Shown piece after piece: positions 4,791 through 11,546 of a DNA stretch of 64,000 nt. Position 1 is the stretch's first letter. Each line of letters starts with the position of its first letter. A model generated the notes under the pieces. That model was not told where the DNA came from, searched no databases, and worked only from the letters and a program-made list of their open reading frames with translations. The position numbers and the translations under genes were made by a program. This DNA is from Natronosporangium hydrolyticum (GTDB lineage Bacteria; Actinomycetota; Actinomycetes; Mycobacteriales; Micromonosporaceae): positions 1,612,001 to 1,676,000 of the forward strand of contig NZ_CP070499.1 of NCBI RefSeq assembly GCF_016925615.1, read 5' to 3'.

Positions 4791-6281
4791 ATGACCAGCT
4801 TTGTTGACCGGGTGGCCTTGCGGATCCAGGCTGGCGACGGCGGCCACGGCTGCGTCTCGATCCACCGGGAGAAGTTCAAGCCGCTCGGCGGCCCGGACGG
4901 CGGCAACGGCGGCCACGGCGGGGATGTCCTGCTGGTTGTCGACCCTGGCAGCCACACCCTGCTCGACTTCCATTACCGGCCCCGGATCAAGGCGCCCAAC
5001 GGCACCCAGGGCCAGGGCGCCAAGCGTGACGGCGCCGCCGGTACCGACCTGGTCCTGCCGGTCCCGGACGGGACCGTCGTGCAGACCGTCGCCGGCGAGG
5101 TGCTCGCCGACCTGGTCGGCGCCGGCACCACCTATGTGGTGGCCCGCGGTGGGCGGGGTGGCCGCGGCAACGCCGCCCTCGCCAACAGCCGGCGCAAGGC
5201 GCCCGGCTTCGCCGAGCTCGGGGAGCCAGGGGAGCACCGCGAGGTGGTCCTTGAGCTCAAGAGCGTCGCCGACGTGGGGTTGGTCGGTTTTCCCTCGGCG
5301 GGTAAGTCCTCGCTGATCTCAGCGGTCTCGGCCGCCAGACCCAAGGTCGCCGACTATCCCTTCACCACTCTGGCGCCCAACCTGGGCGTGGTCCGGGTCG
5401 CCGACACCACGTTCACCGTCGCCGACGTGCCGGGGCTGATCCCCGGCGCCGCCACCGGCAAGGGGCTGGGGTTGGAGTTCCTCCGACACGTCGAACGCTG
5501 CGCGGTGCTGGTGCATGTGATCGACACCGCGACGATGGAGTCGGAGCGGGATCCGATCCGGGACATCGACGCGATCGAGGCGGAGCTGACCGCCTACGGT
5601 GGGCTGTCCGACCGGCCCCGGCTGGTCGCGCTCAACAAGGTCGACATCACCGACGGCCGTACCCTGGCGGAGCTGGTGCGGCCCGAGCTGGCCGCGCGGG
5701 GCCTGCGGGTCTTCGAGGTCAGCGCGGCGACCAGGGAAGGGCTACGGGAGCTCACCAACGCCATGGCCGAGTTGGTGTCGGCCTCCCGGGGAGCGCGCGG
5801 ACCGGTCGAACCGACCCGCACCGTGCTGCGCCCGACGCCGATCGACGACAGCGGCTTCGCGGTCACGCAGGCGCCGGATGGTGTGTTCGTGGTCGCCGGT
5901 GCCCGACCGGAGCGTTGGGTGCGACAGACCAACTTCGACAACGACGAGGCGGTCGGCTACCTCGCGGACCGGTTGGCGCGGCTCGGGGTGGAGGATGCGC
6001 TGGCGAAAGCGGGCGCGGAGCCGGGCTGTACGGTCCGCATCGGCGAGCGCGAGTTCGACTGGCAACCAACTGTCCACTCCGACCCGGATCACGTGTCGGC
6101 GGTGCGCGGCGCCGATGAGCGGCTGGTCGACCGGCCGCGACGGCGCACCGCGGCGGAGCGGTTGGCGGCCCGCAACGCGCGGCGGCGGCCGCCCGCCGAC
6201 GAGGCGACTGCCGGCGAGGCGGCTGCGGGCGAGGCGGGCGAGGCGGCCGCAGAGACCGCTGCCGAAGGCAACGAGCAGTAA
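4791..6281 (+). CDS. obgE: GTPase Obg (ribosome assembly / stress GTPase)
   Basis: 496 residues. The Gly-rich Obg fold occupies about 1-157 ([13 protein letters not shown]). The G domain follows: G1 GFPSAGKSS, switch [16 protein letters not shown]3 DVPGLI and G4 NKVD. The C-terminal OCT domain covers roughly 350-430, and the tail is Ala/Glu/Arg-rich and disordered. Obg binds the 50S subunit and couples ribosome assembly to GTP/ppGpp. It is the last gene of rplU-rpmA-obgE. A proB gene often follows in other actinobacteria but is absent here. The Ala-Gly-Glu repeats in the final 25 residues look like recent slippage. Confidence 0.97.
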
Positions 6282-6396
6282 CCGCAACCGCGGCGTCTCA
6301 TAATTCGGTCGGCGATCGGCTGCGTACGCATGGTAAAGATGGTCGCCGATGCTGCTGGGCTGCGGATGACTAGAAGTTGTGGCACGATGACCGCCT

Positions 6397-6801
6397 ATGA
6401 CCGAAACCCCGGTTCTGGACACCCCTGAAGCTATTCGTGAGCATCTGGAGATCGCGCTCGACCCGGCGGATCGGCGTCAACGCGGTGTGCGCTTCGTGCT
6501 CTGTGATGCCGACAACCGGGTGATGGTCCACTGTCCGGTGGACGACGTGCCCGCGGATGTCGATTCGGAGGACTGCACCCATTTCGTCTCGGTCTTCGCC
6601 TCCGCATTAGCGGAGGGCGATGAAGGCGGCGGCATGCTCGTGGCGTTGACCCGTCCCGGTTCTGGGACGATCAACGACCTCGATCGGATCTGGTTCCGGG
6701 TCACGCATGAAGTGTGCGCCCAGAACGGGGTCCGGGTGATCGGCGTACACCTGCTCACTCCGTCCGACCATCGGGAGATCCACCCTGATGACGCGATCTG
6801 A
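6397..6801 (+). CDS. Conserved hypothetical actinobacterial protein
   Basis: 134 residues, soluble, no signal peptide. It begins MTETPVLDTPEAIREHLE. The centre reads as a compact alpha/beta domain: VRFVLCDADNRVMVHCPVDD, then a LVALTRPGSG strand-loop and a C-terminal IGVHLLTPSDHREI strand. I recognise the pattern from uncharacterised actinobacterial proteins but cannot assign activity. It may share a fold with RadC/JAB-like domains, but it lacks the HxHP metal motif, so no peptidase activity is claimed. It stands alone and is convergent with trpS across a strong terminator hairpin. Confidence 0.65.
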   Translation: MTETPVLDTPEAIREHLEIALDPADRRQRGVRFVLCDADNRVMVHCPVDDVPADVDSEDCTHFVSVFASALAEGDEGGGMLVALTRPGSGTINDLDRIWFRVTHEVCAQNGVRVIGVHLLTPSDHREIHPDDAI

Positions 6802-6814
6802 CGCGGTCCCCGGT

Positions 6815-6840
6815 GGCCCGCCCGGCAGTCCGGGCGGGCC
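6815..6840. terminator. Bidirectional terminator hairpin
   Basis: A perfect 11-bp stem, GGCCCGCCCGG against CCGGGCGGGCC, with a CAGT loop, sits between the convergent 6397-6801 gene and trpS, whose stop is at 6849. A U-tract is lacking, as is common in high-GC actinobacteria. The symmetry allows it to serve both strands. Confidence 0.7.
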
Positions 6841-6848
6841 GGGCGGGC

Positions 6849-7916
6849 TTACAGCAGCCCGAGCGCCCGACGGGCCCGGGCGACGGTCGCGCTGGCTCGG
6901 GTGCGGGCACGGTCCCGACCAGCGGTGAGGACCGCCCGCACCTGATGCGGGTCTCTCGCCAGCGTCAGGTAGCGCCGCTGAATCGGGGCGAGGAGATCGA
7001 TTACCACCTCGGCCGCCGTCTCCTTCAGCTGGCGGTAGGAAGAGAGGCCGGCGGCCACCTCGGCCGGTTCGGTGTCGGCGCCGGCCGCGATGATCTCCAA
7101 CAGGTTGGCGACGCCGGGCTGTCCGATCGGGTCGTGCCGAATCTCCCTGCCCTGGTCGGTCACCGCCCGGGCGATCTTCCGCCGCAGTACGTCGGGCGGG
7201 TCCAGCAGGTAGATCACGCCCTGGCCGCTGCGGCGTGACTTGCCCATCTTGGCGCCCGGATCACTGAGGTCCATGATCCGTGCGGCTACCCGGGGGGTCA
7301 CCGCGCGGGGCACCGTAAACGTCTCGCCGTACCGGTTGTTGAATCGGCTGGCGAGGTCGCGGGCGAGCTCCAGGTGCTGGCGTTGGTCCTCGCCGACCGG
7401 CACCTCGTCGGTGTCGTGGAGCAAGATGTCGGCCGCCATCAGCACCGGATAGGTGAGTAGGCTCAACCGGCTGTGGCCGGTCCCCGACGCCTGTGCCCGC
7501 TGCCGAAACTGGATCATCCGATGGACCTCGCCGTGGCTGGCGACACACTCCAGCAGATAGTGCAGTTCGGTGTGTTCCGGCAGCTGCGACTGAACGTAGA
7601 TGGTGGTGCTGGCCGGGTCCACCCCGGCGGCGAGCAGCGTCGTCGCCTGTTCCAGCGTGTACGCCCGTACCTCGTGGGGGCGATGGTCCACGGTGAGCGC
7701 GTGCAGGTCCACGATGGCGACCAGGTTGGCGTCGTCGTCGGCGGTGGACTGCGCGGTGACCATGGGCCGGATCGCGCCGAGATAATTGCCGAGTTGTAGC
7801 CGGCCGGTCGGGGCGAGCCCGGTCAGTCGGCGGACGCGCCGGCCGGTGTCGGGGTGCGGGCGTTGACCGGCTGTGGTCGGGGCTGGCCGGTCGGCGGTGG
7901 GGACTGGTGGAGACAT
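6849..7916 (-). CDS. trpS: Tryptophanyl-tRNA synthetase, divergent (auxiliary/indolmycin-resistant-like)
   Basis: 355 residues. Class I aminoacyl-tRNA synthetase charging tRNA-Trp. The HIGH-type signature is GLAPTGRLQLGNYLGA (residues 33-48) and the KMSKS loop is KMGKS (223-227). MIQFRQRAQ, VLMAADILLHDTDEVPVGEDQ and the C-terminal anticodon-binding helices are also present. KMGKS rather than the usual MSKS, and an acidic DDDAN stretch where bacterial enzymes carry a His before the IVDxHA block, set it apart from the standard housekeeping enzyme. They recall the auxiliary TrpRS1 type of Streptomyces. Expression is very probably controlled by the attenuator just upstream (7972-8079) and perhaps by a hairpin over its ribosome binding site. 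Whether the genome carries a second trpS cannot be seen here. Confidence 0.93.
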   Translation of the reverse strand: MSPPVPTADRPAPTTAGQRPHPDTGRRVRRLTGLAPTGRLQLGNYLGAIRPMVTAQSTADDDANLVAIVDLHALTVDHRPHEVRAYTLEQATTLLAAGVDPASTTIYVQSQLPEHTELHYLLECVASHGEVHRMIQFRQRAQASGTGHSRLSLLTYPVLMAADILLHDTDEVPVGEDQRQHLELARDLASRFNNRYGETFTVPRAVTPRVAARIMDLSDPGAKMGKSRRSGQGVIYLLDPPDVLRRKIARAVTDQGREIRHDPIGQPGVANLLEIIAAGADTEPAEVAAGLSSYRQLKETAAEVVIDLLAPIQRRYLTLARDPHQVRAVLTAGRDRARTRASATVARARRALGLL

Positions 7917-7923
7917 GGCTGTG

Positions 7924-7942
7924 GGCTCCTCTCTGGGGAGCC
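7924..7942 (-). promoter_or_regulatory. Hairpin sequestering the trpS ribosome binding site
   Basis: On the minus strand GGCTCC pairs with GGAGCC (6 bp). The 3' arm contains the AGAGGAG Shine-Dalgarno that lies 8 bases before the trpS ATG. Folding would hide the site from ribosomes. This adds a possible translational layer to the transcription attenuator; it is inference from sequence alone. Confidence 0.45.
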
Positions 7943-7971
7943 GCCTGGCCGGGCGCTGTGGCCGCAGCAGA

Positions 7972-8079
7972 ACGGCCGCCCGGAGGCGGCCGTGGTAGCT
8001 GCTGCGTGGGATCGGTGGCCGCCGGTTACGGCGCCCACCAGCGGAGTTGGCTCAACGTCCCATGCATTCGGTAAGCATA
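7972..8079 (-). promoter_or_regulatory. Trp-responsive ribosome-mediated attenuator of trpS
   Basis: Read on the minus strand. A -10-like TATGCT (8074-8079) lies 6 bases before the ATG of a 13-codon leader with tandem Trp codons. Segment 1 (CGCCG, 8029-8033, overlapping the last sense codons and stop) pairs with segment 2 (CGGCG, 8020-8024). Segment 2 (GGCGGCC, 8017-8023) pairs with segment 3 (GGCCGCC, 7985-7991). Segments 3 and 4 form a perfect 9-bp terminator stem with a TCCG loop (7972-7993). This is the classical 1:2, 2:3, 3:4 layout. A ribosome stalled at the Trp codons would mask segment 1 and favour the 2:3 antiterminator. The auxiliary trpRS1 of Streptomyces coelicolor is known to use ribosome-mediated attenuation, which fits. 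Confidence 0.8.
8026..8067 (-). CDS. trpS leader peptide with tandem Trp codons
   Basis: A 13-codon reading frame encoding MHGTLSQLRWWAP and ending in TAA, about 110 bases upstream of trpS. Two adjacent TGG codons at positions 10-11 lie just before the hairpin segments. I see no Shine-Dalgarno. The -10-like TATGCT ends 6 bases before the ATG, so the transcript may start at the ATG (leaderless). The Trp pair in such a short frame, in front of a tryptophanyl-tRNA synthetase, makes chance unlikely. Confidence 0.8.
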   Translation of the reverse strand: MHGTLSQLRWWAP

Positions 8080-8103
8080 TCAGTGAGGAGCGTGGTGGCG
8101 CAG

Positions 8104-8901
8104 TCATCGCCGCCGGTGCAGCCGGGCCGTCAGCGCACGCTGTGCCACCCGGCCCCGGCGGGCGACGATCGCCTGCCGGGCGGCGACCGTCCGGGGCACC
8201 GGCGCGCCCGGGTCGGCGAGCGGCTGCGTGTGGTCGCGGGGTGAGCCGGTTACCCGCTGCCACCCGGTGTCGGTCACGACCACATGGTCCAGGAACCGGA
8301 TGCCGGCGGAGTCCGCCGCCTGCGTGATCCGCACCGTGGCCGCCACATCGTCCTCACTGGGGGTCGGGTTGCCGCTGGGATGATTGTGCGCCAACCCGAA
8401 GGCGCTGCCGTCCCGGCGCAGGACCGCCACCATCACTTCGCGAACCGGCAGCAGACTGCGATCGGCTGACCCCTCCGAGAGCACATCGCAGCCGAGCACC
8501 CGGTTGGCCCGGTCGCAGACGACGACCACCAGCCGCTCCCTGGTCCGCCCGTGTAACAGCGGCGCCGCCACGCTGGCCAGGTCGGCGGCGCTCGTCACCC
8601 GGGTGGCCGCCTCGCCCTGCTCCGCCCGGCGGGCAAGTTCGAACGCGGCGGCTAGCGCCGCGGCCTTGGCCGGCCCAACCCCGCTGATGGCTGCCAGCTC
8701 GGCCGGGTGGGCCCGCCCGACCGCGCGCAGGGAGCCGAATCTGGCGAGCAGGCGCTCGGCGAGGGCGTGGGCGCCGACGCCGGGTGCCCCGCCGGTGCCG
8801 AGCACCACGGCGAGCAGTTCGCGGTCGGCGAGCGCGGCGGCGCCGAGCGCACGGAGCCGCTCGCGGGGCCGTTCCGAGACTGGGAGATCGACGATTCGCA
8901 T
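8104..8901 (-). CDS. radC: RadC family JAB-domain protein
   Basis: 265 residues from ATG 8901, which gives the family-typical start MRIVDLPVSERPRERL. An upstream in-frame start at 9018 would add 39 low-complexity residues and run into the divergent pepN. The N-terminal helix-hairpin-helix region contains ISGVGPAKAAAL. The C-terminal JAB/MPN domain has the metal motif HNHPSGNPTPSEDD. RadC proteins (DUF2466) resemble JAMM metalloproteases; a direct repair role has been questioned. Its stop is about 25 bases upstream of the trpS promoter, and it is divergent from pepN with a ~110-base spacer. Confidence 0.93.
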   Translation of the reverse strand: MRIVDLPVSERPRERLRALGAAALADRELLAVVLGTGGAPGVGAHALAERLLARFGSLRAVGRAHPAELAAISGVGPAKAAALAAAFELARRAEQGEAATRVTSAADLASVAAPLLHGRTRERLVVVVCDRANRVLGCDVLSEGSADRSLLPVREVMVAVLRRDGSAFGLAHNHPSGNPTPSEDDVAATVRITQAADSAGIRFLDHVVVTDTGWQRVTGSPRDHTQPLADPGAPVPRTVAARQAIVARRGRVAQRALTARLHRRR

Positions 8902-9011
8902 GGTCGTGAGGGTAGTGGCGCGGTATGACACCGGCGTCCAACCGGATTCTCCGACGGGGCGGCAGGGGCCCCTGGGTGCGCGTCCCGGCGGCGTCGGGCA
9001 GGATGGGCGAC

Positions 9012-11546
<2,535 letters not shown>

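Follow-up and report, generated by a model that had tools for sequence, protein, structure and literature searches.

A predicted ribosome-mediated transcription attenuator upstream of an apparently auxiliary trpS gene of Natronosporangium hydrolyticum, with a covarying helix near a probably leaderless start

The 64,000-nt stretch of N. hydrolyticum DNA analysed here, called the window, carries a gene for a tryptophan--tRNA ligase (trpS), upstream of which the initial annotation had placed an attenuator of the trp type with two adjacent Trp codons in its leader peptide. This raises the question whether a ribosome stalling on this leader controls the gene and, as asked by the initial annotation, whether the lineage shares a leader of the trpRS1 type. 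The leader ORF could be located in front of trpS as claimed, on the minus strand at 8067-8026 (ATG CAT GGG ACG TTG AGC CAA CTC CGC TGG TGG GCG CCG TAA). A strict leader rule, i.e., an ORF beginning with ATG or GTG, 8-24 codons long, that has a Trp among its last eight codons and TAnnnT 5-8 nt before the start, is matched once on both strands of the window, by this ORF. Besides the leader and its four pairing segments, a putative promoter element and a further helix, named P0, were assigned:

8074..8082, minus strand: predicted extended -10 element TGA-TATGCT (hexamer 8079-8074), from the sequence and the TAnnnT spacing in related leaders
8026..8067, minus strand: leader ORF MHGTLSQLRWWAP plus stop, of the leaderless type; Trp codons 8040-8035, stop TAA 8028-8026; the only ORF of the window that matches the leader rule
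8058..8066, minus strand: P0 5' strand, leader nt 2-10 with nt 5 unpaired, overlapping the start codon; from the minimum free energy (MFE) fold of the 98-nt leader and family covariation
8029..8040, minus strand: segment 1 (UGGUGG-G-CGCCG) with both Trp codons inside; from sequence and MFE fold
8013..8024, minus strand: segment 2 region (CGGCG-G-CCACCG), antiterminator strand GGCGGCC at 8023-8017; from sequence, MFE fold and masked-ribosome fold
8003..8011, minus strand: P0 3' strand, within the spacer of segments 2 and 3; from covariation and MFE fold, displaced in the MFE fold of a longer RNA
7985..7993, minus strand: segment 3 (ACGGCCGCC), partner of segment 2 (antiterminator) or segment 4 (terminator); from sequence, alignment and masked-ribosome fold
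7972..7980, minus strand: segment 4 (GGCGGCCGU), terminator 3' arm behind the loop UCCG (7984-7981), followed by UCUG (weak U-run); from sequence, MFE fold and alignment A1
7926..7934, minus strand: predicted Shine-Dalgarno sequence (SD) of trpS, AGAGAGGAG
6849..7916, minus strand: trpS, tryptophan--tRNA ligase of 355 aa (TIGR00233, E 1.5e-86; PF00579)

The genome contains a second trpS gene, whose product is 47% identical to the window TrpRS and for which no Trp ORF candidate was found within the 480 nt scanned upstream. The window trpS is apparently the auxiliary one of the two genes, and the second copy is presumed to be the housekeeping one. As in the trpRS1 attenuators of actinomycetes, the Trp leader precedes the auxiliary and not the presumed housekeeping trpS. 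The window TrpRS gives a higher score than the second copy with 64 of 65 TrpRS loci, the margins being modest for the Streptomyces-like ones. Since a RadC-like gene of the same direction upstream of the leader ends at 8104 and an Obg-type GTPase gene beyond trpS is convergent, the leader is assigned its own promoter and the unit is probably monocistronic.

The three pairings described before are all present in the window, namely 1:2 (CGCCG/CGGCG) around the stop codon, 2:3 (GGCGGCC/GGCCGCC, 8023-8017 with 7991-7985) and the 9-bp stem 3:4 (ACGGCCGCC-UCCG-GGCGGCCGU, 7993-7972). The 1:2 pairing is extended by UGGUGG/CCACCG, so that the Trp codons themselves are paired. That no U-tract follows is nearly right, the terminator being followed by UUCUGCUG with 4 U in 8 nt; the mean over 63 related loci is 4.2 U. 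The 98-nt leader, from the leader start to the terminator end, folds with -55 kcal/mol (z -4.07), a value that none of 200 dinucleotide shuffles equalled; its MFE and centroid structures concur in P0, 1:2 and 3:4. The strands GCAGCAG and CUGCUGC (8005-7999 and 7970-7964) flank the terminator and could lengthen its stem; in the MFE fold of a longer window RNA their pairing displaces P0. An Rfam covariance-model scan of positions 6000-10000 with E up to 5 gave no match in the leader, neither a T-box nor any other, and its sole match (8237-8302) lies outside. Between terminator and trpS, a third GGCGG strand resembling those of segments 2 and 4 is located at 7945-7937, which continues into GGCUCC, able to pair with GGAGCC (7929-7924) at the SD.

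The absence of the leader from close relatives had been named as grounds for rejecting the attenuator. In 101 genomes of relatives, 37 trpS1-type loci were found at E <= 5.7e-90, of which one runs into a contig end; the other 36, whose upstream DNA is readable, all carry a Trp leader at the same position. Of these leaders, 32 begin with M-R and 25 end with WW[A/R/L/S]P before the stop; tandem Trp codons occur in 28, the other 8 having a single one. Named Dactylosporangium contigs carry the same leader type. Class-wide, a search with the protein gave matches in 35 of 340 genomes (E <= 1e-90), among them the own genome. From these, 29 new loci were fetched, one of which is masked (L147), and the 28 readable ones all have a Trp leader, 20 of them from a single Streptomyces-like genus. 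The closest leader peptide to trpL2 of S. lividans is MMTRTCTQLWWAA (L127), with 12 of 13 residues matching; others (MTTRTCTQLWWAA) match in 11 of 13. Whether the lineage shares the trpRS1-type leader can thus be answered with yes. The strict leader rule is matched by 52 of 64 trpS1-type leaders vs. 0 of 20 upstream regions of presumed housekeeping trpS genes. One further locus (L039, 49% identical) has no leader by the rule and was treated as a housekeeping copy.

Single loci deviate from this layout. In L010, the usual stop is lost, resulting in a 21-codon ORF running through segment 2, and L088 has behind its leader, near where trpS would lie, a match to residues 241-355 of TrpRS only, which is probably a trpS remnant. 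In several Streptomyces-like assemblies (G477, G487, G549, G558, G576, G649, G664 and others), the trpS1 leader is often located within about 1 kb of a contig end, which suggests a repeat, perhaps rRNA, just upstream of it.

The extended -10 element (TG-A-TATGCT, 8082-8074), absent from the initial annotation, sits where a leaderless start would need it. The end of TAnnnT is 6-7 nt ahead of the start codon in 57 of 63 leaders, namely in 29 of 35 relatives and in all 28 class loci; this count is not fully independent, as the motif helped to choose the leader starts. For S. lividans, a mean distance of 6.3 nt between -10 region and transcription start site (TSS) and a leaderless trpL2 are reported (PMC8079986). 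Judged by the -10 spacing, the trpS leader is probably leaderless, with a predicted TSS at the AUG or no more than two bases from it.

For the covariation analysis, an alignment (A1) was built from sequence only, comprising 33 of the 36 related loci; L010, L033 and L038 were excluded due to a lost stop or a divergent layout. In A1, 3:4 is paired in 99.6% and 2:3 in 92% of the cells. The initial annotation had proposed to look for a conserved leader and for compensatory changes in the segments. The leader is conserved; as for compensatory changes, 1:2 and 3:4 vary too little for covariation to stand out clearly from shuffles, and none is seen for 2:3 in the alignment.

The effect of a ribosome was modeled for 63 loci (L033 skipped) by masking an assumed footprint of 30 nt, pseudoknots being forbidden. 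When the A site holds the first Trp codon, the 2:3 pairing exceeds 0.5 in 61 of the 63 loci; when it holds the second, this is so in 52, and it is so in 1 with the ribosome at the stop and in 3 without a ribosome. In the window, 2:3 forms with the ribosome masked at the first Trp codon. The evidence that 1:2 and 3:4 on one side and 2:3 on the other exclude each other and are switched by the ribosome position comes from the alignment and from this folding. Together with the Trp leader, these results support in silico the earlier reading as a trp-type attenuator based on ribosome stalling. Once the RNA is complete, the pairing of segment 3 with segment 4 averages 94-97% whatever the state of the model, and therefore the control must be kinetic.

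It is likely, as judged from the sequence, that the element is a ribosome-mediated transcription attenuator of the auxiliary TrpRS gene, acting on a leaderless leader mRNA. Leader, segments, conservation and P0 covariation are read from the DNA; from here on, we infer the TSS, the stalling, the termination efficiency and the clasp role of P0. Transcription would begin on the leader AUG or one to two bases from it, and a 70S ribosome would load on the bare 5' end and translate the leader. If Trp-tRNA is short, the ribosome would stall at the tandem UGG and cover segment 1, so that 2:3 could pair and the polymerase would read into trpS. If Trp-tRNA is plentiful, a ribosome at the stop would block segment 2, and 3:4 would terminate transcription. 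If no ribosome loads, the 5' end would fold back around 1:2 by means of P0, covering the landing zone and holding segment 2, which again would leave 3:4 to form.

Very improbably, the leader acts mainly on trpS translation or via Rho instead of intrinsic termination. The weak U-run (4 of 8) would fit this, as would the motif GGCGG after the terminator, present in 38 of 54 5'UTRs vs. a mean of 12.1 in shuffled ones, and the SD of the class set, which is more paired than in shuffled sequences (0.90 vs. 0.54, n = 20). On the other hand, the GC-rich hairpin, about 10 bp long, hardly varies and shares sequence with the antiterminator, and the SD of the relatives is barely more paired than in shuffled sequences (0.64 vs. 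0.58, n = 32), which leaves SD sequestration as a second layer unsupported there.

Returning to the attenuator, its four-segment picture proved incomplete and not wrong: segments and leader were right, and the leaderless start and the helix P0 had been missed. In P0, leader nt 1-9 pair with the spacer of segments 2 and 3; in Streptomyces-like genomes, it is about nt 9-17 that pair. The spacer CAUCCGCGU of many relatives is complementary to the leader start AUGCGGAUG, and both strands are changed together in L023 (AUGCGCGU/ACGCGCGU), L025 (GUGCGC/GCGCAC) and L037 (AUGCGAAGCG/CGUUUCGCGU), with one mismatch remaining in L036 (UGACUUGUUC/GGACCAGUCA) and in the window itself (UGCAUGGGA/UCCCACGCA). 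In Cellulomonas pakistanensis (L096), a locus found by protein and of somewhat different layout, P0 reads AUGAGGU/ACCUCAU.

In A1, 82.8% of the P0 cells are paired, compared to at most 57.6% for slid versions. Double changes occur at 7 of 9 pairs; on four measures 0 of 500 shuffles and on a fifth 1 of 500 did as well, and RNAalifold recovers 7 of the 9 pairs unaided. P0 covaries better than 1:2, 2:3 and 3:4. For 63 loci found by protein, the P0 duplex with the own partner has a mean of -12.3 kcal/mol vs. -9.4 (sd 0.29) for permuted partners, 0 of 20,000 permutations being as low, and the outcome was the same after thinning to n = 39 and n = 25. Compared to shuffled spacers, P0 reaches p <= 0.05 in 28 of 36 relatives using 12 leader nt. 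With 20 leader nt, a scan from which L010 was excluded and in which L033 with its empty spacer was scored as a miss, this holds for 13 of 35 relatives, for 24 of 28 class loci and for 4 of 9 trpE loci (41 of 72 overall), while the promoter-side control of the same scan gave one relative, three class loci and no trpE locus (4 of 72). P0 of the window on its own scores modestly (p 0.015 using 12 leader nt and 0.156 using 20), and among the five trpS leaders of family f31 with a single Trp codon ('LWRAA') it is weak, with p <= 0.05 in one of five. The recurring CGCGTA after the terminator was considered as a second partner of the leader start and was rejected (mean z 0.01 and -0.03).

That P0 is a functionless by-product of conserved leader codons and a conserved spacer, the element being a plain four-segment attenuator, is quite unlikely. 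Both strands are indeed near consensus (AUGCGGAUG and CAUCCGCGU) in many loci, trpE leaders vary little, the own spacer is the single best partner in 5 of 63 loci only, and some leaders have a weak P0. Against this stand deviant leaders with matching deviant spacers (L023, L025, L036, L037, L096, L121, L152), the partner permutations, none of which reaches the mean energy of the own pairs, and the persistence of the pairing where its register shifts to about nt 9-17. With this shift, the helix and not the start codon is what is kept, and P0 of the Streptomyces-like leaders still overlaps the landing zone.

Being nested with 1:2 and 3:4, P0 should favour termination, and its putative function is that of a clasp of the default-off fold and of a cover of the landing zone. 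When leader nt 1-16 were barred from pairing, the number of loci with 2:3 above 0.5 in the absence of a ribosome rose from 0 to 2 among the 35 relatives and from 3 to 12 among the 28 class loci, in a model in which P0 and 2:3 are mutually exclusive by construction, as it forbids pseudoknots. For most relatives, P0 has little effect in the model, as 1:2 alone keeps 2:3 off. Somewhat short of an even chance, and so put forward tentatively, is the idea that the landing zone is itself a switch strand. P0 would then set a time window for ribosome loading before the spacer is made, after which the start-covered terminating fold would result, and it may also close again behind a ribosome that has moved beyond the Trp codons, reading out in this way where the ribosome is.

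A different role, which we regard as unlikely, would make P0 (also) part of the on state, in which P0 and 2:3, while the ribosome sits on the Trp codons, would together form an H-type pseudoknot strengthening the antiterminator. The strand order and the short linkers fit (a few nt from segment 2 to the P0 3' strand and, by eye, about 8-18 nt from there to segment 3), and a 30-nt footprint leaves the P0 5' strand free if the first Trp codon is at nt 28 and mostly free at nt 25. Furthermore, the LEU element of actinobacterial leuA has been proposed as a pseudoknot (PMC1262725). The MFE structure and the alignment consensus, however, place P0 with 1:2 and 3:4, though both methods are blind to pseudoknots, and P0 of Streptomyces-like leaders (about nt 9-17) would be covered in part by a ribosome standing on the first Trp codon (nt 28).

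By its sequence, the same attenuator architecture stands before trpE-type genes. A covariance model of the element, built with P0 so that the loci found were selected with P0 in the model, matches one site in the own genome and sites in 184 of 300 genomes of the family and in 78 of 345 of the class. The 29 class loci that were fetched all precede trpS (20) or trpE-type genes (9), and the 31 family loci fetched, own included, all precede trpS. Of 20 further family loci picked by hand among the matches listed, 18 precede trpS (9) or trpE-type genes (9); the remaining two are L085, which is truncated at a contig end, and L074, for which there is no match. A protein search for TrpE in 197 genomes resulted in 17 loci, of which 15 have a WW leader and a TAnnnT box 6-7 nt before the start; the own genome's TrpE is without a WW leader. 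Among these 15 trpE leaders, P0 varies too little for a permutation of partners, which was not significant (4,291 of 20,000 as good); compared to shuffles, p <= 0.05 is reached in 4 of the 15.

In L075-L080 and L083, the same attenuator is located before an anthranilate-synthase-like fusion protein; that of L075 (600 aa) has matches only below the NCBIfam cut-offs, and the others are 62-85% identical to it. Leaders of the leaderless type were also observed before leuS (L155-L161; M....LLLSEP(R/C) and stop) in 7 of 8 genomes searched, comprising 5 of 5 Streptomyces-like genomes and 2 of 3 of the window's family, with none by rule in the own genome. Their LLLSEP end is strikingly conserved, and no consistent P0 helix could be seen in them by eye.

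The trp leader of E. coli has tandem Trp codons near the stop and the 1:2, 2:3 and 3:4 logic in common with the window leader; unlike the latter, it has an SD, a 5'UTR and a strong U-tract. To our knowledge, it has no P0-like helix. S. coelicolor trpRS1 is reportedly, by the titles of the works of Kitabatake in 2002 and of Vecchione and Sello in 2010, the latter said to concern S. coelicolor, an auxiliary antibiotic-resistant TrpRS under ribosome-mediated transcriptional attenuation.

Closer to the window is trpL2-trpS of S. lividans TK24, for which RNA-seq data describe a leaderless leader (MMTRTCTQLWRAA), two hairpins and no uridine-rich run (PMC8079986). Both share a Trp leader before trpS, the two hairpins and the lack of a uridine-rich run, and the leaderless start of trpL2 is predicted for the window leader as well; trpL2 has one Trp codon and the window leader two (PMC8079986). 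The accessible part of that study mentions no helix in the start region, and in Streptomyces-like leaders P0 lies at about nt 9-17, off the start codon (PMC8079986). For trpS2 of S. avermitilis, an actinobacterial trpS attenuator like that of the window, the prediction dates from 2005, and neither a leaderless start nor a start-region helix is described in the part available (PMC1262725). In the three-hairpin attenuator of C. glutamicum ilvBNC, the TSS is one nucleotide from the leader start, and hairpin H1 is proposed as an antiantiterminator shielding the ribosome landing region, its role also being called unclear by the authors (PMC11857589). This double role of H1, blocking initiation and acting as antiantiterminator, resembles the one proposed for P0, although the ilvBNC leader has codons for branched-chain amino acids instead of Trp (PMC11857589). 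No description of a P0-like helix in Trp attenuators was found in the open-access literature as far as accessible, which does not establish its absence from print. The kind of attenuator is thus already known (S. lividans trpL2, S. coelicolor trpRS1), and the structural variant with P0 is probably new.

A predicted stalling attenuator on an auxiliary synthetase gene is common to the window's family, the Micromonosporaceae, and to Streptomyces-like and other Actinomycetes, and what is added to the known attenuator is a covarying helix over or beside the putative leaderless initiation region. The natural, sequence-swapped versions of P0 make the question of a start-covering hairpin, unclear for ilvBNC (PMC11857589), testable. 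If the proposed role is true, leaderless translation, which is common in Actinobacteria, would gain a regulatory use within attenuation.
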